Assembly (NCBI RefSeq): GCF_008933165.1
Contig: NZ_WBVQ01000003.1
Coordinates: forward strand, 124,001-188,000
DNA from: Phaeocystidibacter marisrubri
Lineage (GTDB): Bacteria; Bacteroidota; Bacteroidia; Flavobacteriales; Schleiferiaceae
Direction of reading: 5' to 3'
DNA: 64,000 nt
Position 1 is the first letter of the stretch; each line of letters starts with the position of its first letter. Positions 37,479-47,840 of the stretch are shown piece by piece. The notes beneath the pieces are model-generated. The model saw only the letters and a program-made list of their open reading frames with translations, had not been told where the DNA came from and did not search any database. Position numbers and translations under genes: made by a program.

Positions 37479-39776
37479 ATGAAAAAGACGTTACTATTAT
37501 TGCTGAGTGTTTTATCCTTTGGATTAAGCGCATCTCATATTAAAGGAGGGCAATTGTACTGGGATGCTTTGGGAAGCAATTCCTACAAAGTTTACCTCGA
37601 ACTGTACCCCGAGTGTTCTTCACCTACACCGCCATCTACCACTCCCGTAGTGATTGATGGATCCAACGTTAACCTAAACTTTGTTTCTCAGACCTTCGTT
37701 GCTTCTAGCTGCACCACTTGTACGGGAAATGAACATGTGGTTTGGCTTTATGAAGCCACGGTTAACAATATCGTGGTGCCACCAGCTATTGGCTATTCCA
37801 CCTTTTCATGGACAAGTTGTTGTAGAACGTTCTCGGCTAACTTGGTAGGTGCTCCCAGCATTGGGTTTGAGAGCAGAATGTATCCAGCAGGCCAGAATAA
37901 AAGTAGCGCACGCATTGACCCTGAGTTTTTGATGTCGACCTACAATGGAAAGCGATCGTTTTTATATGTTGAAAACCCTTCGTTTGACAGCGTGTTCGTG
38001 GATCATGCACCTTCGGGTTACGTTGCAAATGGACAGTTTGTTCCAGCGACTTACAGTTCTGGCTTCAGCGCGACGAACCCAACTTCGGCCAATGACTTTT
38101 TAAGTCCAGATGGTTATTTTGAATCGGGTTCTTCTACCAGTGGAATGTACTTCGTTTCCTTTAAATCCAAGGCATTCACACAGCAAGGCATTCCTACTTC
38201 AGATGTGCAAATTGAGTTTGCCATCAATCCGATTGGATCGAGTTCAGGTACCAACCCACCTACGCAATCTGTTATTCCGGTTCAGGGCTATGGAGCGTGG
38301 ACAACAAGTGATTCCATTGTTTATACGACTACCGCATCTCCAGGAGATAGTGTGAAGGTCGAATTCCAATCCTATGACATGGATTTGGATGCGAACTTCC
38401 TTCCTGAACAGATAACAGCACAGTTGGAAATGGCAGCTACAATTCCGGGGAATCCGGTGCTTACACCTGTAGCTCCGCAGTCTGGGTTAACGAGCTCGAT
38501 GACGAATAACACCATCTTTAGTTGGGAGGTTCCGCAAAACATCAATCCAGGTGTTTACCATTTTGCGGTTCGTGTTTTTGACAATCACTGTCCAAATCCT
38601 GGACATTCAATGAGAATGTTGAAGGTGGTGATTCCCAACAATAATTTGGATGTAGACACCTTTGGAATATGTACCAATAGTTTTGTTCAATTGGTTGCTC
38701 CTACTTCAGGTGGTACTTACTCTTGGAGTCCATCCACAGGTTTGAGCAGTGCAAATACAGCGGTAACCATCGCCTCGCCTTCAACCACCACAACCTACAC
38801 CGTTTCAGTGGATGGGGTTGCTAGAGGGCAGTATACCGTAGAAGTTAATCAGCCAATAACACCCGTAGTGACACTATCCTCGGGTGGACAGCTCGAATTG
38901 TCTAACGCCTCTTCTTTTGACGCCTTCGCGTTCCTATATTATTACATTCCTTTTAGCTTCAACACTTCTCCAATAACCGTAAGCGTACCAGGTTTGTACC
39001 ATGCCGTTGGTTTGAATGGTGGATGTTTTAGCCTGTCAGATTCGGTGATGGTAACTCAAGACTCTCTGGCTACTTCACTTCTGGTGAATCAACCGGTAGA
39101 TACGAGTGAGTTTGTGGTGTTTGATCATCAATCTTCCTATCAAATGGAAATTGCTGTTGGTGGGTTTGATGCCACATTGGAAGTTTTGCAGATTATCATT
39201 CCAGGAGCTGAGATGACAGGTAAAACTGGAAATGTTCGCTTGGAAGTAACTCATTACGATGGTACGGTTTACTCTGTGAATGCAACGCCTTATGGTGGAC
39301 ATTCTCTCGCTTTCTACATGCCTGCTCCTGTAGTGTTCTTCGAAAGCGGTCAGTCCAACCTCGAGCTCATTGTTGATAGTGGCTCCGTTTCACTTCCGCT
39401 TGTTCAAGACGAAGCATTCCCATACTTCTTCGGTGATTTAGGAAGAGTTCTATCCGTGAATGGTTCGCTACAGGGCGCGGCACTGACCGATGATATCATT
39501 CCATTTGTCCTTCGCGGTTCTTGGAGTGTTGGTCTAGAAGAAGTAGCAGCCGACTTGGTGGTTTACCCTCAACCTGCGAAAGATGAGATTCGCATTGATG
39601 GATTGATTGATAATACACACTTCTCTCTTGTTGATTTGAATGGTCGCACTTTGAAAGAAGGCATATTGTCTACCGATGGTAGGATTGATGTTGCTGAGTT
39701 TTCAAATGGCGTTTATGTGCTTAACCTTGTCGATGGAAACTACTCGACGTCACTACAAATTATAGTACAACATTGA
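37479..39776 (+). CDS. T9SS-exported surface protein, first of a tandem 765-residue pair
   Basis: A 765-residue secreted protein: signal peptide (1-18), an N-terminal domain with SHIKGGQLYWDA right after the cleavage site and a CCRT motif near residue 107, several beta-sandwich/Ig-like regions, and a T9SS type A sorting domain at the end (VVYPQPAKDEIRIDG). The SH-GG start and the CCR motif match a domain of large gliding-associated surface proteins in Bacteroidota. It is 765 residues, exactly like the next gene, and similar along its whole length, so the two arose by duplication. Function: probably adhesion or surface layer (inference). A terminator follows at 39802. Confidence 0.85.
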   Translation: MKKTLLLLLSVLSFGLSASHIKGGQLYWDALGSNSYKVYLELYPECSSPTPPSTTPVVIDGSNVNLNFVSQTFVASSCTTCTGNEHVVWLYEATVNNIVVPPAIGYSTFSWTSCCRTFSANLVGAPSIGFESRMYPAGQNKSSARIDPEFLMSTYNGKRSFLYVENPSFDSVFVDHAPSGYVANGQFVPATYSSGFSATNPTSANDFLSPDGYFESGSSTSGMYFVSFKSKAFTQQGIPTSDVQIEFAINPIGSSSGTNPPTQSVIPVQGYGAWTTSDSIVYTTTASPGDSVKVEFQSYDMDLDANFLPEQITAQLEMAATIPGNPVLTPVAPQSGLTSSMTNNTIFSWEVPQNINPGVYHFAVRVFDNHCPNPGHSMRMLKVVIPNNNLDVDTFGICTNSFVQLVAPTSGGTYSWSPSTGLSSANTAVTIASPSTTTTYTVSVDGVARGQYTVEVNQPITPVVTLSSGGQLELSNASSFDAFAFLYYYIPFSFNTSPITVSVPGLYHAVGLNGGCFSLSDSVMVTQDSLATSLLVNQPVDTSEFVVFDHQSSYQMEIAVGGFDATLEVLQIIIPGAEMTGKTGNVRLEVTHYDGTVYSVNATPYGGHSLAFYMPAPVVFFESGQSNLELIVDSGSVSLPLVQDEAFPYFFGDLGRVLSVNGSLQGAALTDDIIPFVLRGSWSVGLEEVAADLVVYPQPAKDEIRIDGLIDNTHFSLVDLNGRTLKEGILSTDGRIDVAEFSNGVYVLNLVDGNYSTSLQIIVQH

Positions 39777-39911: not shown

Positions 39912-42209
39912 ATGAAGAAATTAGTACTCGCCACATTTTCACTTCTGTTCAGTTTGTCAGCCCTTGCCAACCACTATGTCGGTGGGCAGATCTATTGGGA
40001 TGCAGTAGGAAACGGGAAGTATGTGTTTTATTTGGATAGGATTGAACAGTGTAATATGGGATTCCCTCCCATGCATAGAACGCTTAAAGCGCGCGTGTCT
40101 GGAGTGAGCATTTCTGTGAGACTGCAAAACACGTATCAAATGTGGTCGAATTGTGCATGTTCCAACAGCACATTGCAGGTGCAACACTTTATGAGTGATA
40201 CCATTAGCTTCTCTCTAGGGTCAGCAACTTTTGACGATATCTATTATGAAGAGTGTTGTAGATCTACAACCATGATGAATACGAGTGACGTTGGAATCGT
40301 GGTTACTAGTAGGTTTTACAATACGGGCGTGAATCATTCCAGTGCTCGTTTCGACTTGGTTGAAATGCAAAATTCCAGTCAGAGCGATGAGATTCACTTG
40401 AGAGTGAGTACACCTCAAGCCGACAGCACACATTTCGTGAAATCCACGCCTGTCGTGGGTGTGTTTGGCAGCACGTTTAGCTATGCTACCTACAACTCGG
40501 GATTCAGCGCTACAAATCAGGTTTCATCTGCTGAAATGCTAGATCAAGCGGGACTCTTTAAGGGGAATACAACGACAACGGGTCTTTATGCCATCTCGCT
40601 ACAATCAGACCAGTTCTTGCCAGGTGGGTTGAAAACCGCAGAGATCAAGCTTGAAACCATTTTGAGCGTTACCCCACTGGCTTCGGTTACCAACAACAGC
40701 CCAGACGATACGACCCTTGTATTGAGTGGAAACTGGCAATCGATCAATACTACCGGATATTCAACTACAGCTCAGCCGGGAGACAGTTTACACCTGCGTT
40801 TTTTGAGTATCGATACAGATCTAGACTCAAATTTTCAGCCTCAAACCATTACGGCAAGTATGAAAGGTGACCTGAATCCTGGTACCAATGGCGTTTCCTT
40901 CTTCCCTCAATACCCTCAAAGTTCACTGAGCAGCAGCTACAGTAATAATGTTGAATTTTTATGGGAAGTTCCAGCGGGGATGAGTCCGGGAATTTACAAT
41001 TTCAATGTTCAGTTCGTAGACGACTACTGTGATCAGCCGGGACAAACAGTTATTCCTATAGAAGTTACAATTCCGGGTTTTACTCTGAAGACAGATTCCC
41101 TAGCTACTTGTACTGGGAAGTCGGTGGCGATGGCCTCGCCAAGAGGGGGTGCCGTTTATTCGTGGACGCCAACTACCGGCTTATCCTCTCCATCGTCACC
41201 TGTTACAGATGCCTCACCATCAAGTTCAACCCTCTACACCATTACAGTTGATGGTATTGTAGCGGGAGAGTACTATGTAGATGTTGTAGGATCTGGAGCT
41301 CCGATCGCTTCAACGGCATCAGCTACTTCCATTGAGATCACCAATCCGGAGCGCTATGAAAATCACGCTTTTCACTATGGATATGTACCCGTTTCTTTCA
41401 ACGATACTGTTCTGAATACCCAGGCAACGGGAATGTACCACATTGTGGGTCAGAAGTTAAATTGCTTCGAGACATCGTCTCAAGTAACCTTAGGACAGGA
41501 TACACTCCAGAGCTTCTATATGCTCAGCAAAAATAGGGGGTGGGATGAATATGTCATTTTTGATTCCGCAGATACCTACGATATGAGTTTGCGTATTGGA
41601 AGCGACACCAAGTACATCTTTGCGCGACAATTCATCATTCCAGGTGTCCAGCTTTACGGTGCCAATGCAGGTGTTGACTTAGAAGTTCGAGGAGATGCGG
41701 GGTATGTAGATACCATTCCGGGTGTGATGTACGGCGGACATTCCATGCTCTTTGAATTGCCGAGCAACGAATCGTTTACCCTTGTCGCTCACTTCATATT
41801 GCACTTCACAGGGGATTCCATCCAAATACCATTGATGCAAAACCGCACCCTGCCGTATGCCAATGGCTATTATTTTGTGACGGCGGTGAATGGAAGCTTG
41901 AATGGATCTCCGTTGTACAACGATATCGTTCCCTTCTTTATCAAAGGAGGAACGGGAGTAGGAGTGAGCGAATGGGAGGGAGAAGAGTTTGTGATTTACC
42001 CTCAACCTGCTCAATCTCAACTAACTCTTGAAGGAGTAGGTGAAGGAGCAGAGTACACCTTGTATTCTATTACAGGAGCTGCAGTTTCTGAAGGAATATT
42101 GACTGGAGATCAGACGATTTCAGTTGAGGATCTTCCCTCAGGAGTTTATGTGATCCAAGTGGTAGAAGACGGTCGAGTGAGTAGTCAGAAAATCCAAGTG
42201 CAAAGATAA
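39912..42209 (+). CDS. T9SS-exported surface protein, second of a tandem 765-residue pair
   Basis: Paralog of the preceding gene, identical in length (765 residues). It has a signal peptide (1-19), NHYVGGQIYWDA after it, a CCRSTTMM motif near residue 116, the shared NYSGFSATN-type stretch YNSGFSATN near 196, and a T9SS type A end (FVIYPQPAQSQLTLEG). The two differ most in the middle, where the ligand-binding loops would lie. The conserved cysteines suggest disulphides. It has its own terminator at 42313. The pair may present variant versions of one surface adhesin (inference). Confidence 0.85.
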   Translation: MKKLVLATFSLLFSLSALANHYVGGQIYWDAVGNGKYVFYLDRIEQCNMGFPPMHRTLKARVSGVSISVRLQNTYQMWSNCACSNSTLQVQHFMSDTISFSLGSATFDDIYYEECCRSTTMMNTSDVGIVVTSRFYNTGVNHSSARFDLVEMQNSSQSDEIHLRVSTPQADSTHFVKSTPVVGVFGSTFSYATYNSGFSATNQVSSAEMLDQAGLFKGNTTTTGLYAISLQSDQFLPGGLKTAEIKLETILSVTPLASVTNNSPDDTTLVLSGNWQSINTTGYSTTAQPGDSLHLRFLSIDTDLDSNFQPQTITASMKGDLNPGTNGVSFFPQYPQSSLSSSYSNNVEFLWEVPAGMSPGIYNFNVQFVDDYCDQPGQTVIPIEVTIPGFTLKTDSLATCTGKSVAMASPRGGAVYSWTPTTGLSSPSSPVTDASPSSSTLYTITVDGIVAGEYYVDVVGSGAPIASTASATSIEITNPERYENHAFHYGYVPVSFNDTVLNTQATGMYHIVGQKLNCFETSSQVTLGQDTLQSFYMLSKNRGWDEYVIFDSADTYDMSLRIGSDTKYIFARQFIIPGVQLYGANAGVDLEVRGDAGYVDTIPGVMYGGHSMLFELPSNESFTLVAHFILHFTGDSIQIPLMQNRTLPYANGYYFVTAVNGSLNGSPLYNDIVPFFIKGGTGVGVSEWEGEEFVIYPQPAQSQLTLEGVGEGAEYTLYSITGAAVSEGILTGDQTISVEDLPSGVYVIQVVEDGRVSSQKIQVQR

Positions 42210-42312
42210 TTGTCGACAAATCAGCCAGACAGACATCCCGCTCATTGGGTGTTGGTAAGTGGAGTGAAAGTGCAGACATTGTTATAAATCAACGACCATT
42301 TTTTCAACGGAA

Positions 42313-42345
42313 GACCCCATTGACTTCGGACAGTGGGGTTTTTTC
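42313..42345 (+). terminator. Rho-independent terminator of the second paralog
   Basis: ACCCCA and TGGGGT pair across a loop, followed by T6. It separates the surface protein from the polyamine cluster. Confidence 0.75.
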
Positions 42346-42408
42346 TTTTCCAGTAGTTGGCGATTCAAGGAATATCTGATCCCGACTCTCTTTCTTTTAC
42401 AGATTCGA

Positions 42409-42416
42409 TACATTTG
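42409..42416 (+). promoter_or_regulatory. Putative -7 element of the polyamine-type cluster promoter
   Basis: TACATTTG fits TAnnTTTG and is 22 bases before the DUF4178 ATG. No clear TTG at -33. Confidence 0.5.
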
Positions 42417-42438
42417 AAATCTCACTCAGGAAATCACT

Positions 42439-42969
42439 ATGGCATTTAGCTTATTTAAAAAACGCGATTCCGAAAAGCGCAACACTGTTCTCTCCGCGCT
42501 GGATTTACAACCGGGGTCTACGTTTAACTATCATTCCAAATCTTGGAAAGTAGCAGAGTCTTACCGCTACGACTGGGGAGATGATGACTTTTCATTTGAT
42601 CATAAAGTTGTTTGTGGAGAAGAGTCGTTTGCGCTCAGTGTAGAGGAGTATGATTGGATCCGAATGGTAAAGACCACTCCTATAGTGAACGAGGATTTGC
42701 ACCGTCAATTTGTAGAAGCCTATGCTACAGATAGTGCATTGCCTAAGCGATTCGACCACAATGGGTGCACCTTTGAATTGGTTGAGACCGCTCCTGGATA
42801 CGTGTCAGAATGGGATTCGGACGAGGCAGAAGAATTGATTAATTACGATTACGAGGACATCGCGAATAGAAGTCATGTATTTAGCGTAGAGCAATACGAT
42901 GAGGACGAGTTCGAAATGTTTGAGGGACACAAATTGGGGACGATAGAAATCACTAGAATTAGTCAATGA
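42439..42969 (+). CDS. DUF4178 family protein, first gene of the polyamine-type cluster
   Basis: A 176-residue acidic soluble protein. The DUF4178 core starts with a strand pair around LQPGSTFNYHSKSWKVAESYRYDWG, cut here to PGSTFNY (25-31) and the later FDHNGCTFELVE near 105-116; the W and Tyr-rich motif is typical. DUF4178 is found next to DUF350 and aminopropyltransferase genes in many bacteria. The function is unknown; a binding role toward a modified membrane or surface partner is a guess. It is followed by a one-base gap, and the -7 box is at 42409. Confidence 0.82.
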   Translation: MAFSLFKKRDSEKRNTVLSALDLQPGSTFNYHSKSWKVAESYRYDWGDDDFSFDHKVVCGEESFALSVEEYDWIRMVKTTPIVNEDLHRQFVEAYATDSALPKRFDHNGCTFELVETAPGYVSEWDSDEAEELINYDYEDIANRSHVFSVEQYDEDEFEMFEGHKLGTIEITRISQ

Positions 42970-42970
42970 T

Positions 42971-43684
42971 ATGAGCGAAGGAAATGCAAAGTTGCGCGCG
43001 ATAGGTGCAGTGCTACTCATTGTTTTGCTAGGTGTAGGGGTTGCACAGTGCAGCTCGAAGAGGAAGATTGAAGATGGGGTGAACGTGGTGATTCGCAATC
43101 ATGCAGCCGATAAGAATTACTCCATTTTGCTGGCGGATATGGACTTTAGAGATGACAAGTATTACCATAAATACGATGTGATCTTGATGGACCCAGACTC
43201 TACTTTCCGGGAAGAGCACACAGATTGGATGGAGGTTTCACCACCGTATTTTCAAAGGTGTCAGAATGCTATGGGGATGGAAGTGGCGTCCTGTGTGAAT
43301 GGTAAAGTTGAGCAGAATATCGCTCCTCCTGGGTATTCCAATCACGTGGGGAATCCGCACTACGGTCGTTGGCACGGCGGTTATTGGATTTTCTTCTCTC
43401 GATATTCTTGGTTGGGATCGCGGTATCGCAACTCGTACTATCGTCCCGATTACAATTCCTACAATACATATAGCTCCAGCTACCGAGCGCACAATCGCGA
43501 TTACTACGGCCAGTCTGGTAAATATGGAACCAGTGCGTATACAAGTACCCAGCAAGGGAAGTCGACCACATGGGGGGGAAGATCTCCTCAGTTTAAGAAC
43601 AATGTGAGAAGCCAAGTTAAACGATCAGCGACGAGATACACGCGTTCTTCTACGCGCTCTCGATCAGGTGGATTCGGTAAATAG
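42971..43684 (+). CDS. Membrane-anchored Tyr/Arg/Ser-rich protein of the polyamine-type cluster
   Basis: A 237-residue protein that I do not recognise as a family. The N-terminus has one hydrophobic segment (about residues 8-25, AIGAVLLIVLLGVGVAQ) followed by a Cys that could be a lipobox (VAQC), so it is probably a lipoprotein or single-pass membrane protein. Residues 35-130 are a folded-looking region, and residues 135-237 are low complexity, rich in Tyr, Arg, Ser and Gly (YRNSYYR, SATRYTRSSTRSRSGG). It lies between DUF4178 and DUF350 in a tight operon. It could be the substrate of aminopropyl transfer or a scaffold (speculation). Confidence 0.7.
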   Translation: MSEGNAKLRAIGAVLLIVLLGVGVAQCSSKRKIEDGVNVVIRNHAADKNYSILLADMDFRDDKYYHKYDVILMDPDSTFREEHTDWMEVSPPYFQRCQNAMGMEVASCVNGKVEQNIAPPGYSNHVGNPHYGRWHGGYWIFFSRYSWLGSRYRNSYYRPDYNSYNTYSSSYRAHNRDYYGQSGKYGTSAYTSTQQGKSTTWGGRSPQFKNNVRSQVKRSATRYTRSSTRSRSGGFGK

Positions 43685-43691
43685 AAACAGG

Positions 43692-44582
43692 ATGGAAGAA
43701 TATATGACCGATATCAAAGTGGGACTTGGATACGCAGTAGGGGCTATAGCTCTGATATGGTTTGCCAAGTACATGTTGACCAGCTTTCGCAAAAACCTGA
43801 ACATTCGACAAGAACTTACAGAACATGATAACCTCGCCTTTGCCTTGGCTATTGTGGGGTATTTCGTGGCGGTGATCATCGTGATTGCGAGTGCCATTGT
43901 TGGGCCATCTCATGGTTGGACTCAAGACATGCTTGCCCTCTTTTTCTATGGATCCATCGCCATTTTATTGTTGAATCTTTCGGCCATGCTGAATGACAAA
44001 ATCATCTTGCGAAACTTCTCTATCCGCGATGAGATTTTCCGCGATCAAAATGCGGGAATGGGTGCCATTGAAGCGGGCAATTACATCGCTTCTGCGCTCA
44101 TTGTATTTGGAGCCGTTTCAGGAAGTGGTGTAGATTTTTTCCCGGAACACTCCAGTGGATATTGGTTGTCGGGATTGATTACTGCTGTTGTTTTCTGGAT
44201 GGTAGGTCAAATCCTCCTATTCGGGTTTACTCATTTCTACAATCTCATCGTTCCTTTTAACATACACGATGAAATAGAGAAGGATAATGCAGCGGTAGGA
44301 GTTTCTTATGCCGGAGTGTTAATCGCAGTAGGTTTGTTGATTGGTAGTGGAATTAGTGGTGATTTTGTGAGTTGGGCAGACCATTTTACTTGGCTGGGAA
44401 TAGAGGTCGGTATTGGGTTGATCGCACTTCCACTTATTCGTTGGATAACCGATGTGATCTTGCTTCCGGGTGCTAAAATCACGGATGAGTTGGTGAATCA
44501 AGAAAAGCCCAATGTGGGTGTAGGCATCATTGAAGCTTTTGCTTACGTGGGCGGTGCAGCGATTACTCTATTGGTTGTATAA
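43692..44582 (+). CDS. DUF350 (duplicated) membrane protein of the polyamine-type cluster
   Basis: A 296-residue membrane protein made of two similar halves, each with about four transmembrane helices (duplicated DUF350). The helices are around 12-35, 55-80, 85-110, 125-150 and again in the second half. A recurring short motif, IRDEIFRDQNAGMGAI near residue 118 and IHDEIEKDNAAVGVSYAG near residue 200, marks the two repeats. DUF350 proteins accompany polyamine or peptide-ligase genes in many bacteria (E. coli yjfL). It sits 7 bases after the previous gene and 4 bases before the aminopropyltransferase. Role: probably a membrane component of the same pathway (inference). Confidence 0.85.
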   Translation: MEEYMTDIKVGLGYAVGAIALIWFAKYMLTSFRKNLNIRQELTEHDNLAFALAIVGYFVAVIIVIASAIVGPSHGWTQDMLALFFYGSIAILLLNLSAMLNDKIILRNFSIRDEIFRDQNAGMGAIEAGNYIASALIVFGAVSGSGVDFFPEHSSGYWLSGLITAVVFWMVGQILLFGFTHFYNLIVPFNIHDEIEKDNAAVGVSYAGVLIAVGLLIGSGISGDFVSWADHFTWLGIEVGIGLIALPLIRWITDVILLPGAKITDELVNQEKPNVGVGIIEAFAYVGGAAITLLVV

Positions 44583-44586
44583 TTTG

Positions 44587-46128
44587 ATGAACGCCAAGTC
44601 GACATTACTCAAGGCAGCCCTCTTTGCAACGGGCTTCTCTGGAATCGTTTCTGAGTACGTGCTTGCTACATTGGCGAGCTATTTCTTGGGGGATTCCATC
44701 GTGCAATGGGCATTGGTCATTTCTCTTATGCTCTTTTTCATGGGGATTGGCGCTCGAATCACCCGTCAGATTGAAAAGAACGTCTTTGCATGGTTGGTAG
44801 GGACAGAGTTTTTACTCTCCATTATCGTTTCGCTATCGGCACTGCTCACCTATGCCTTTGCCGCTTATTCAGATTTTACAGGGTTATTGATCTATTCCAT
44901 TTCTGCACTAACAGGGTGCCTCATCGGAATGGAACTCCCCTTGGCTATTCGACTTAATGATCAATTTGAAGTACTTCAGGTCAACGTGTCGAATATTCTG
45001 GAAAAGGACTATTATGGGAGTTTGGTGGGCGGCGTGTTTTTTGTTTTTATCGGTTTGCCCTATCTCGGATTGGCCTACACACCCATCGCGCTTGGATTAG
45101 TGAACCTACTAGTAGGCATCGCTTTACTCAATGTTTTTCCAGCATTTGGTAAATGGGGGAAGATGGGGTGGAATGCTCTAGCCTTTGTGCTCGTGGCGTT
45201 CATCTCAGCGTCATTCGCTTTTGCAGATCATGTGATTCAGTACGGAGAACAAAAGAATTATTCCGACAAGATTATCTATCAAGATCAAAGTCCGTATCAG
45301 AAAATAGTCATCACTCAGTGGAAGAATGATTTTTGGTTGTATTTGAATCAGAACCTACAGTTCTCAACGATGGATGAACCGCTTTACCACGAGGTTTTGG
45401 TTCACCCTGTCATGCAACTGCATCCGCACCCTACCCATGTGGCTATTTTGGGAGGAGGCGATGGATGCGCGGTTCGCGAATTGTTGAAGTACGAATCCAT
45501 TGAGTCCATTACGCTGGTCGATTTAGATCCTGCTATGGTGGAGCTGGCCAAGACGCATGATGTTCTGGTCCGACAAAATGATTCGTCTTTTTATTCGCCC
45601 AAAGTGCATATCTACAACGATGATGCCTATCATTACATGGATACTTCACGTGCCTTATACGATGTTATTATCCTCGACTTGCCCGATCCTAGAACGGTAG
45701 AGTTAAGTCGGATGTACAGCTATGAGTTCTACTCCATTTGCAAGCGTCAACTTCGTCCTGGTGGTGTACTCATCACCCAAGCGGGGAGTCCCTATTTTGC
45801 GCCGAGCAGCTTCAGGTGTATCGATCTCACCCTTCAGAAGGCTGGATTTTCCACCTTGCCCATCCACAATAATATCCTTACCATGGGAGAGTGGGGGTGG
45901 GTTATCGGAAGCGCAGATTCAACTTCGAAAAACGAGCTCATCCAACGTGTGAAGGCCGGAGATTGGGAGGAGCTTCCATTGGAATTTATGAATGGCGAAG
46001 CGGTGAGTTTGATTACGTCATTTGGTCAGAATTACTTTGAGCAGAAGATCGATTCCATTCAACCCAATCACGTACACGACCCCGTGCTGTACCACTACTA
46101 TTTAAATGGAAGATGGGATACCTATTGA
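44587..46128 (+). CDS. Membrane-embedded aminopropyltransferase (spermidine synthase family)
   Basis: A 513-residue protein: about seven transmembrane helices fill residues 8-220, then a soluble aminopropyltransferase domain. The SAM/dcSAM-binding loop is LGGGDGCAVREL near 288-299, followed by VDLDPAMVELA near 310, the NDDAYHYM near 343 and a LDLPDPRTVELSRMYS stretch near 365, which corresponds to the polyamine-binding region but uses DLPDP instead of the DxTDP of soluble SpeE. It would transfer an aminopropyl group from decarboxylated SAM to an amine at the membrane. The ATG at 44587 is chosen because the earlier codons lie in the previous gene. Confidence 0.88.
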   Translation: MNAKSTLLKAALFATGFSGIVSEYVLATLASYFLGDSIVQWALVISLMLFFMGIGARITRQIEKNVFAWLVGTEFLLSIIVSLSALLTYAFAAYSDFTGLLIYSISALTGCLIGMELPLAIRLNDQFEVLQVNVSNILEKDYYGSLVGGVFFVFIGLPYLGLAYTPIALGLVNLLVGIALLNVFPAFGKWGKMGWNALAFVLVAFISASFAFADHVIQYGEQKNYSDKIIYQDQSPYQKIVITQWKNDFWLYLNQNLQFSTMDEPLYHEVLVHPVMQLHPHPTHVAILGGGDGCAVRELLKYESIESITLVDLDPAMVELAKTHDVLVRQNDSSFYSPKVHIYNDDAYHYMDTSRALYDVIILDLPDPRTVELSRMYSYEFYSICKRQLRPGGVLITQAGSPYFAPSSFRCIDLTLQKAGFSTLPIHNNILTMGEWGWVIGSADSTSKNELIQRVKAGDWEELPLEFMNGEAVSLITSFGQNYFEQKIDSIQPNHVHDPVLYHYYLNGRWDTY

Positions 46129-46129
46129 T

Positions 46130-46426
46130 ATGAAGGCAGCTATATATTCATACAATGTGTGGGTAGGGGAAGTCGACGGAAATCGATTGCGAGACTTGCT
46201 AGATTTCACTTTGTACCGTGCGGGATTTGAGGTGTTAAATTTCATGGAACACCACTTTGAACCGCAAGGCTATACGGCAATTTGGCTGTTAAGTGAAAGT
46301 CATTTGGCGGTTCATACCTTTCCAGAGGAAGCCAAAGCATATATAGAACTCAGCAGTTGTAATAAGACAAAGAATGCCTTATTTGCTGAGATAATTTCTC
46401 CTCTTGGAATAAAGGAAGTTCGATAG
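46130..46426 (+). CDS. speD: Very small S-adenosylmethionine decarboxylase (SpeD/SpeH type)
   Basis: A 98-residue pyruvoyl-dependent AdoMetDC, shorter than the ~120-130 residues of typical prokaryotic enzymes. The self-cleaving pair is Glu56-Ser57 in ESHLAVHTFPE, and the spacing Ser57 to His62 to Cys77 (+5 and +20) matches Ser63, His68 and Cys83 of the Thermotoga enzyme; Thr49 sits where the Thermotoga Ser55 is. So it keeps the residues for autocatalysis and catalysis. It starts 1 base after the aminopropyltransferase stop (TGA at 46126), so they are co-expressed. It would supply decarboxylated SAM to that enzyme. Confidence 0.9.
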   Translation: MKAAIYSYNVWVGEVDGNRLRDLLDFTLYRAGFEVLNFMEHHFEPQGYTAIWLLSESHLAVHTFPEEAKAYIELSSCNKTKNALFAEIISPLGIKEVR

Positions 46427-46472: not shown

Positions 46473-47840
46473 ATGAAGACAACGACCATCCTCTCTCTAA
46501 AAGGCCTTGCCCTTCTTACCTTTCTTTTCATTTCATGGAGCTGTAAGAAGGATGTCAATTCCAGCACATCCGGTTCCAGTTACACCGACCCATTCACGCA
46601 AATGCCCGCTACCGAAGATGTTGTAATGTATGAAGTGAACCTTCGTGCGTACAGTGAGAACGGCGATTTACAAGGCGTGATGTATCGTTTGGATGAATTG
46701 GAAGATATGGGAGTAAACGTCATTTGGCTCATGCCGATTTACCCAGTTGGACAAGTGAATTCAGTGAACTCTCCGTACTGCATTCGGAATTATATCCAGG
46801 TGGCCTCTGAGTATGGCAACTTGAGAAAACTGAGAGAGTTTACCAGTATGGCGCACGATAGAGGAATGGCGGTGATGCTTGACTGGGTTGCCAACCACAC
46901 GGCATGGGATCATCCTTGGATAGAAGAAAATCCAGGTTGGTATACGCAGGACGGCAATGGCAATATTATTCATCCTCCAGGTACAAATTGGCAAGATGTG
47001 GCTGATTTGAATTTCGACAATATGGACATGCGTGCTGCCATGATCGAATCAATGAAGTATTGGGTGGAAGAGGCCAATGTGGATGGATTCAGATGTGATT
47101 ATGCCGATGGTGTACCCTATGATTTCTGGGTAAGTGCAATCGATAGCTTGAGAAATATTCCAGGCAGAGAACTCTTGTTTTTTGCTGAAGGGAATAGAGC
47201 CGATCATTTTGCAGCTGGATTTGATATGGCTTTTGGATGGAACTACTATGGAGCCATCAAGAATGTATGGAATGGTCAGGCAACTTCGTTGATGCGCAAC
47301 ACGCATATTCAAGAGTATAACAATGCTCCCGCGGGAAAACACTGGGTAAGATTTACCACTAACCACGATGAGTCAGCATGGGATGCTACGCCTATGCAAA
47401 TTTTCAACGGAAAGAAAGGTGCACTGGCGGCATCTGTTGCTACCATTTTCACCGGTGGAGTCCCTTTGATCTATGGCTCTCAAGAAGTAGGAGTGACAGG
47501 GACCATTCCATTCTTTTCCAACACTCAAATTGATTGGAGCAAGAATGGAGATATGCTCGCGGAATACGAGTCTCTTTTGTCTTTCTACTCAAAGAATAAA
47601 ATTGCCAGAACAGGCGTAAATACAGATTACTCAGATGATGATGTTCTGTGTTATGTGAAATCCTTGAATGGCAAAGAACTGCTCATCATTGTCAATGTTC
47701 GCAATACCACGGTCTTGTATGATATGCCTTCAAGTGTTGTTGTTGGAGATGATTGGTACGACGAAAGAGATCAAGTGAAGTACGATTTTGGATTGCAGCT
47801 TATTCTGGAACCTTATCGCTATTACGTGCTGTCGAGATAA
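46473..47840 (+). CDS. Alpha-amylase family (GH13) lipoprotein
   Basis: A 455-residue glycoside hydrolase with a lipoprotein signal (FISWSCKK; Cys24 is the lipid site). GH13 motifs are in order: the region I-type DWVANH near 140, GFRCDYAD with the nucleophile Asp near residue 206, FFAEGN with the acid Glu near 238, and TTNHDES with the third acidic residue near 297. It acts on alpha-glucans at the periplasm or cell surface. A 46-base gap separates it from the AdoMetDC gene, and a partial promoter-like TACACTTTTG is found there, so it may be independent. Confidence 0.9.
   Translation: MKTTTILSLKGLALLTFLFISWSCKKDVNSSTSGSSYTDPFTQMPATEDVVMYEVNLRAYSENGDLQGVMYRLDELEDMGVNVIWLMPIYPVGQVNSVNSPYCIRNYIQVASEYGNLRKLREFTSMAHDRGMAVMLDWVANHTAWDHPWIEENPGWYTQDGNGNIIHPPGTNWQDVADLNFDNMDMRAAMIESMKYWVEEANVDGFRCDYADGVPYDFWVSAIDSLRNIPGRELLFFAEGNRADHFAAGFDMAFGWNYYGAIKNVWNGQATSLMRNTHIQEYNNAPAGKHWVRFTTNHDESAWDATPMQIFNGKKGALAASVATIFTGGVPLIYGSQEVGVTGTIPFFSNTQIDWSKNGDMLAEYESLLSFYSKNKIARTGVNTDYSDDDVLCYVKSLNGKELLIIVNVRNTTVLYDMPSSVVVGDDWYDERDQVKYDFGLQLILEPYRYYVLSR

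Follow-up and report, generated by a model that had tools for sequence, protein, structure and literature searches.

An operon described by Ravi et al. 2024 (PMC11237479) joins a CesT-PspA pair to a spermidine-synthase-like domain fused to seven transmembrane helices (7TM), a DUF350 protein, a new lipoprotein and a DUF4178 protein, and passages of that paper suggest, citing Li et al. 2019, that polyamines or the aminopropylation of other substrates are linked to membrane dynamics. Here, a related cluster of five genes was analyzed in Phaeocystidibacter marisrubri (Bacteroidota), within a window of 64,000 nucleotides (contig NZ_WBVQ01000003.1, positions 124,001 to 188,000) whose first letter is position 1. 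The cluster encodes a DUF4178 protein, a membrane-anchored protein with a disordered tail, a DUF350 protein, an aminopropyltransferase fused to a membrane domain and a short S-adenosylmethionine decarboxylase (AdoMetDC). The cluster type and the idea of a role other than spermidine synthesis are already known from the passages of PMC11237479; new here is the tail, which ends in lysine (Lys), as a concrete candidate acceptor. Those passages make no mention of a Lys-ended tail, and no mention was met in the literature searched, which was mostly open-access and partly aimed at C-terminal lysine. We rate as evenly balanced the proposal that the enzyme pair of the cluster aminopropylates the C-terminal lysine of the tail protein.

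Similar neighborhoods have reportedly been met before: the 2019 study of Li et al. in Biochem J is said to have described functional AdoMetDCs beside membrane-fused synthase-like (MFS-SpdSyn) proteins and DUF350, and to have proposed a non-polyamine acceptor. Spermidine was reportedly absent, and the fusions reportedly did not complement a spermidine synthase (speE) mutant. These systems reportedly share with the present locus an AdoMetDC with Ser, His and Cys beside a membrane-fused synthase and DUF350. A second group of related systems is found in E. coli, namely YgiB-YgiC and YjfL-YjfM-YjfC, where the likeness consists of DUF350 in the yjf operon, a DUF1190 partner with a Ser/Gly/Arg-rich tail, and polyamine chemistry; the title of a 2023 paper by Pederick et al. 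is said to concern peptide-spermidine ligases of the YgiB-YgiC/YjfL-YjfM-YjfC type. In these E. coli systems the enzyme is an ATP-grasp ligase and the tail ends in Gly-Gly, whereas the cluster described here has an aminopropyltransferase and a tail that ends in Lys. Its genes are arranged as follows, with protein lengths in amino acids (aa).

42439..42969, plus strand: gene 1, DUF4178 protein, 176 aa (PF13785, 51.6 bits)
42971..43684, plus strand: gene 2, membrane-anchored Ser/Tyr/Gly/Arg-rich protein, 237 aa (family alignment, AlphaFold model)
43622..43681, plus strand: last 20 residues of gene 2, RSATRYTRSSTRSRSGGFGK, with the C-terminal Lys proposed as acceptor
43692..44582, plus strand: gene 3, membrane protein of 296 aa with DUF350 in duplicate (PF03994 in two stretches, 164.4 bits)
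44587..46128, plus strand: gene 4, aminopropyltransferase fused to an N-terminal membrane domain, 513 aa (PRK03612, 530.6 bits)
46130..46426, plus strand: gene 5, short class 1b AdoMetDC homologue, 98 aa (AdoMet_dc, PF02675, 58.1 bits)

The genes are separated by 1, 7, 4 and 1 bases and each is one open frame with a single stop, so that the coordinates and open frames confirm the arrangement given in the initial annotation, while its family calls (DUF4178, two DUF350 units, an aminopropyltransferase fusion and AdoMetDC) were borne out by Pfam and NCBIfam. With the operon in the passages of Ravi et al. 2024 (PMC11237479) the cluster shares a 7TM-fused synthase, DUF350, DUF4178 and a membrane-anchored protein of lipoprotein type, and the same order is found in relatives. 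Where that operon has a lipoprotein with the Ctha_1186 domain, the cluster has gene 2, a candidate counterpart by its slot and kind. Unlike in that operon, no PspA match was found here, no CesT-type gene lies beside the cluster and an AdoMetDC is part of it. PspA_IM30 had no match in the genome (9 of 14 controls were positive), and the absence of a CesT-type gene applies to the surroundings of the cluster, as a genome-wide CesT search was not made. The CesT/Tir-PspA dyad, which usually accompanies the operon, was thus not found, and we call the cluster only a PspA-less variant.

Gene 2 gave no Pfam match over the cut-off, and no solved structure matched its fold at E up to 0.001. Its AlphaFold model contains a helix (residues 3-25), strands (residues 50-114) and a last stretch of 21 residues with a model confidence (pLDDT) under 50; the tail is disordered and ends in ...SRSGGFGK. 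The N-terminus is lipoprotein-like in most relatives, and the site here reads VAQC. The best 80 of 387 relatives were taken as named loci, 63 of which have enough flank on both sides and are referred to as roomy loci. All 63 gene 2 family members found in the named loci (that of L130 being a 101-aa piece) carry a C-terminal Lys, mostly as ...SRSxGGFGK, compared to a background of 156 of 963 (16%) other open frames of at least 120 aa in these loci. The gene 2 homologues of L033 to L036 end in Lys like gene 2 here, and so do all tail-protein copies that lie away from the enzyme in seven genomes. Where the enzyme gene has no adjoining lipoprotein (six genomes: L151, L180, L198, L138, L178 and L203), a lipoprotein is encoded elsewhere and is Lys-ended in six out of six cases.

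The C-terminal Lys is present on more than one scaffold. In seven Tenacibaculum/Polaribacter-type loci the DUF4178 protein bears a membrane helix followed by a Lys-ended tail (e.g. RSRSSGFGK); these loci have DUF350, transferase and AdoMetDC and gave no lipoprotein match, the rest of the genomes not being searched. The 63 roomy loci are accounted for by 53 lipoproteins, 7 DUF4178 fusions and 3 loci (L151, L180, L198) with the lipoprotein elsewhere, and L146, L152 and L194, which are cut by contig ends, fall outside this accounting.

Some match to gene 4 was present in 60 of 247 genomes of the phylum. Eighteen were taken as of the same kind (E at or below 1e-88, spanning membrane and catalytic parts), leaving out G078, G120, G116, G039, G097 and G100, whose weaker matches (E 1e-11 to 1e-23, longer frames) also reach the membrane part. 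AdoMetDC occurs in all 18 of these genomes versus 35 of the 229 others (Fisher p 7e-14) and DUF350 in 15 versus 14 (Fisher p 1e-13), with kinship ignored in both tests. Three architectures were distinguished. Type A, in six genomes including P. marisrubri, has the lipoprotein-type protein. In type B, found in ten genomes, AdoMetDC lies near a zinc-ribbon DUF4178-type protein (an assignment checked against Pfam only for L042 and L046) and is accompanied by a short membrane peptide, by DUF350 and by the transferase. Type C, in two genomes, has a GSP_synth ATP-grasp enzyme. Nine type B loci carry the tail on a peptide of 57-76 aa ending in FYHK, YYHK or SFGK; in the tenth, L040, it forms the end of a neighboring 464-aa frame. 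The lipoprotein family itself was found in 6 of the 247 genomes, all with the enzyme, when at most 10 candidates per genome were scored.

Before plasmid-borne clusters were inspected, they were predicted to encode, on the same strand, an anchored tail with a terminal Lys. Eleven of 12 plasmid loci were examined, representing about six independent groups; H9, a near twin of H8, was left out. A Lys-ended anchored tail was found in all 11, in 8 as predicted and in 3 (Burkholderia) on the opposite strand, with the following ends.

Ensifer: ...PESGK
Tritonibacter (2 loci): ...NSNRVK
Gemmatirosa: ...RFRHGK, terminating a longer frame
Burkholderia (3 loci; L210, L212, L213): ...SYGSHK, opposite strand
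Alteromonas: ...GPSSGK
Novosphingobium (3 loci): ...GPSHK or ...GPTHK

The Burkholderia tail genes are part of a divergent set with DUF350, DUF4178 and AdoMetDC, and no GSP_synth-like frame was matched in the 11 loci. The Alteromonas cluster (L214, 9539-11202) includes, beside DUF4178, a gene annotated as toxic anion resistance protein. When loci were scanned blindly for polar tails behind a membrane helix, Lys-ended matches were obtained in 18 of 21 loci (L038, L044 and L214 fell outside the thresholds) and in 7 of 36 shorter control loci; because the controls also give such matches, the gene slot was preferred over the scan as criterion.

Tails that are partnered by an ATP-grasp ligase end differently. 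Among 18 partners of GSP_synth ATP-grasp ligases (YgiB and YjfM of E. coli and 16 loci, with both loci of type C among them), the last residue is Gly in 10, Ser in 6, Ala in 1 and Leu in 1, and never Lys. These partners were picked by eye, and 4 of 20 loci (L232, L235, L236, L237) were dropped as none was seen. Both type C tails end in SYGG, the annotation of YgiC and of YjfC in E. coli is peptide-spermidine ligase, and no PF03738 match, hence no GSP_synth ligase, was found in the P. marisrubri genome. A ligase needs a carboxylate, an aminopropyltransferase an amine. The change of the last residue with the enzyme class is our main reason to regard this residue as the likely site of chemistry. 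Weak GSP_synth matches (E 1e-12 to 1e-20) were also seen beside duplicated DUF350 in L117, L119, L120 and L125, several of which encode a protein of 459-472 aa whose tail is rich in Gly, Ser and Phe; these loci are possibly a further variant of these systems.

A C-terminal Lys on a lipoprotein has a different precedent in E. coli Lpp, which is joined to peptidoglycan through this residue. The tail described here, having the same terminal residue, might likewise be anchored by an L,D-transpeptidase, with the polyamine enzymes acting elsewhere. However, the Lys end accompanies the aminopropyltransferase on other scaffolds too, and Gly, Ser, Ala or Leu stands in its place where an ATP-grasp ligase is the partner, which makes Braun-type anchoring very unlikely in our view.

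The association of the genes extends to other genomes, where the same gene order was sought and the genes were found to stay together. In 61 of the 63 roomy loci the synthase is directly preceded by DUF350, and in 45 it is directly followed by AdoMetDC, a gene order far beyond chance; DUF4178 is near in 59, the lipoprotein in 53 and AdoMetDC in 47. CesT, PspA and a TrkA-type channel were each found in 33. The cluster here looks like a shortened version, since its nearest relative, L126, carries the whole set including PspA, CesT and the channel.

In gene 4 the Pfam domain Spermine_synth (131.3 bits) follows the N-terminal membrane domain, and the score for the NCBIfam polyamine aminopropyltransferase PRK03612 exceeds its cut-off of 472. 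The AlphaFold model (mean pLDDT 88.6) shows an aminopropyltransferase fold at residues 217-491, and it is this part, not the membrane domain, that the structure comparison effectively covered. The best match was the Thermus triamine/agmatine transferase (Z 34.9, root-mean-square deviation 2.2, 281 aligned), followed by thermospermine synthase (Z 33.5) and, closely, by spermidine synthases (from 32.7 down), differences that amount to no more than a weak hint. Core catalytic positions of aminopropyltransferases are conserved in 84 type A sequences and almost entirely in a further 21; the nearest named relatives of gene 4, with 73% and 64% identity, come from assemblies of Flavobacteriia and Flavobacteriales.

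Gene 5 was aligned to the solved AdoMetDC proenzymes 2iii, 1tlu, 1vr7 and 1tmi, in which the pyruvoyl Ser, the His and the Cys correspond to its Ser57, His62 and Cys77; Pro65 is also aligned and is, at a guess, the diagnostic Pro of HTxPE. Residue roles in processing and catalysis were taken from passages of Li 2023 (PMC10407285). In light of these passages gene 5 was also considered as a disguised arginine/ornithine decarboxylase, which was rejected since Ser, His, Cys and a Pro of HTxPE are kept; with these residues and an aminopropyltransferase next door, AdoMetDC activity is the better reading. In the AdoMetDC-like proteins of type B loci L037, L038 and L044 the position of the catalytic Cys reads Ser by eye (LSNY versus LCNY elsewhere).

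The P. marisrubri genome has one AdoMet_dc match and one gene 4 match (E up to 1e-10), both in the cluster. A stand-alone soluble spermidine synthase was not found in the genome at this threshold, as the sole match is the membrane fusion. Two PF02784 enzymes are encoded, lysA, which is over its cut-off, and one closest to speA models and under their cut-offs. The gene beside the speA-like one, the only PF01916 match in the genome, is closest to homospermidine/deoxyhypusine-synthase models, again under the cut-off. By sequence, this side-by-side pair (G000:C2:817635-819814, L112) is likely a homospermidine-type operon, with a pathway independent of decarboxylated S-adenosylmethionine. Because the only AdoMetDC and aminopropyltransferase found lie in the cluster and this separate pair exists, a non-spermidine role of the cluster is likely. 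In three relatives with the cluster (G005, G066, G087), AdoMetDC and an aminopropyltransferase are additionally joined in a frame of their own, and together these observations support the earlier claim that the enzyme pair serves something other than free spermidine.

Alternatively, the cluster might be an ordinary polyamine pathway tethered to the membrane, which makes spermidine or aminopropylagmatine from free amines, the role of the tail being limited to binding or sensing what is made. The intact aminopropyltransferase signature and the NCBIfam label are in line with this, and the speA-like arginine decarboxylase could supply agmatine. Such a pathway explains neither the additional frame of the three relatives nor the conserved tie of the enzyme to an anchored tail protein, and the reported failure of such fusions to complement a spermidine synthase mutant also speaks against it; we consider it unlikely.

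If the C-terminal Lys is the acceptor, gene 5 would decarboxylate S-adenosylmethionine and gene 4 would move the aminopropyl group onto the side-chain amine of the last residue of gene 2, with DUF350 and DUF4178 as putative assembly or regulatory partners. With its four carbons and an amine, the side chain of lysine is similar to one half of putrescine, so that a membrane protein would receive a cationic, spermidine-like end; lysine plus an aminopropyl unit gives -(CH2)4-NH-(CH2)3-NH2, the spermidine skeleton, with a mass shift of 57 Da per unit. Gene content, gene order, co-occurrence, intact catalytic signatures and the invariant Lys on several scaffolds are observed; the tail as substrate, its Lys as acceptor and the physiological role are what we infer from them. 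Lysine extension by a polyamine-derived chain is known from the hypusine of eIF5A, where the group is an aminobutyl from spermidine and the enzyme is another one. A chemical precedent for aminopropylated lysines is provided by diatom silaffins, secreted peptides whose lysines carry aminopropyl units (PMC3820600, in the passages concerned), although these are eukaryotic and serve silica deposition.

The initial annotation assigned about seven transmembrane helices to gene 4. A membrane domain is present, with six spans according to the model or seven according to charge. The loops of type A proteins contain on average 3.1, 0.0, 3.5, 0.0, 2.9, 0.0 and 3.6 Lys + Arg in order, a positive-inside count that favors seven spans with the catalytic domain outside. 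However, the segment that follows the final span is just as rich in Lys + Arg (3.6, next to 2.7 acidic residues), and the helix list of the model disagrees, as residues 134-183 form a single helix, which fits six spans and a cytoplasmic catalytic domain. With the catalytic domain inside, the tail would have to be modified before export, as would likewise be needed for YgiB. In the boldest form of the proposal, the catalytic domain would act outside the cytoplasm and the membrane domain would carry decarboxylated S-adenosylmethionine across.

An enzyme embedded in the membrane might also act on a membrane lipid or a small molecule, with the tail as a docking element that recruits it. An amine product outside the cytoplasm is suggested by type B locus L042, which adds an amine-oxidase-like protein with a twin-arginine-like start by eye. 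However, there is no lipid enzyme among the five genes, and docking leaves the dependence of the last residue on the enzyme class unexplained; we therefore hold a lipid or small-molecule acceptor to be distinctly improbable. The initial annotation had named a lipid or the Tyr/Arg/Ser-rich protein as possible acceptors; the evidence points to the protein, more exactly to its C-terminal Lys, and nothing found in this sequence-based analysis points to a lipid.

Several observations weigh against aminopropylation of the C-terminal Lys. The 63 Lys-ended family members share descent, and a conserved last residue is no proof of chemistry, as Tyr is the final residue of the transferase in 79 of 82 cases. 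In a loose form, the blind scan was only modestly enriched (20 Lys-ended matches per 328 kb versus 8 per 255 kb in controls), and L047 and L048 hold both enzyme types with a tail that ends in Gly. Gene 5 scores 49.9 against NCBIfam TIGR03330, below the cut-off of 75.65. Class 1b AdoMetDC gave no match in 4 (L151, L198, L199, L203) of 22 enzyme-bearing genomes, picked mostly for lacking AdoMetDC in the cluster, and class 2 AdoMetDC gave none in 8 genomes in a search without positive control; the proposal does not account for these four enzyme genomes. Finally, the tail is anchored for export while decarboxylated S-adenosylmethionine is made in the cytoplasm.

Upstream of gene 1 two further features were found.

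About 42310..42344, plus strand: hairpin resembling a terminator, with a T run, between the cluster and the gene that precedes it (fold)
42409..42416, plus strand: TACATTTG, a match to the TANNTTTG promoter box, 22 bases upstream of the gene 1 start codon

The hairpin is strong (-17.6 kcal/mol, z -4.1 versus shuffles) and is absent from the consensus-scan list. The promoter box claimed earlier is present in the form of one match at 42409 to TANNTTTG, which we take to be the Bacteroidota -7 promoter consensus, but it is a single-box match of which the plus strand of the window holds 18, and no sigma-70-type promoter was among the matches listed by the consensus scan for the plus strand of 42211-42439. 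Directly upstream of the cluster lie two adjacent secreted paralogues of 765 aa (37479-39776 and 39912-42209), both with a C-terminal domain that is type IX secretion-like by eye. An alpha-amylase-like lipoprotein gene (by eye; 46473-47840) follows on the same strand 46 bases after the cluster, and L142 and L162 likewise encode large proteins, amylase-like by eye, downstream of the cluster.

Many bacteria have a membrane-fused aminopropyltransferase together with AdoMetDC, and the presence of Lys on several scaffolds makes the question of the acceptor directly assayable. We tentatively suggest, with some doubt, a bacterial modification that is new to us, in which aminopropylation of a C-terminal Lys on an anchored disordered tail would provide Bacteroidota, Gemmatimonadota and several classes of Pseudomonadota with a spermidine-like end that is genetically encoded, as a chemical counterpart of the logic of C-terminal Gly plus spermidine suggested by YgiB/YgiC. 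As about half of the relatives add PspA, a CesT-type chaperone and a TrkA-type channel, envelope stress or control of membrane charge is pointed to. If true, this would add a kind of protein modification in bacteria and would tie polyamine chemistry to PspA-type envelope stress control.

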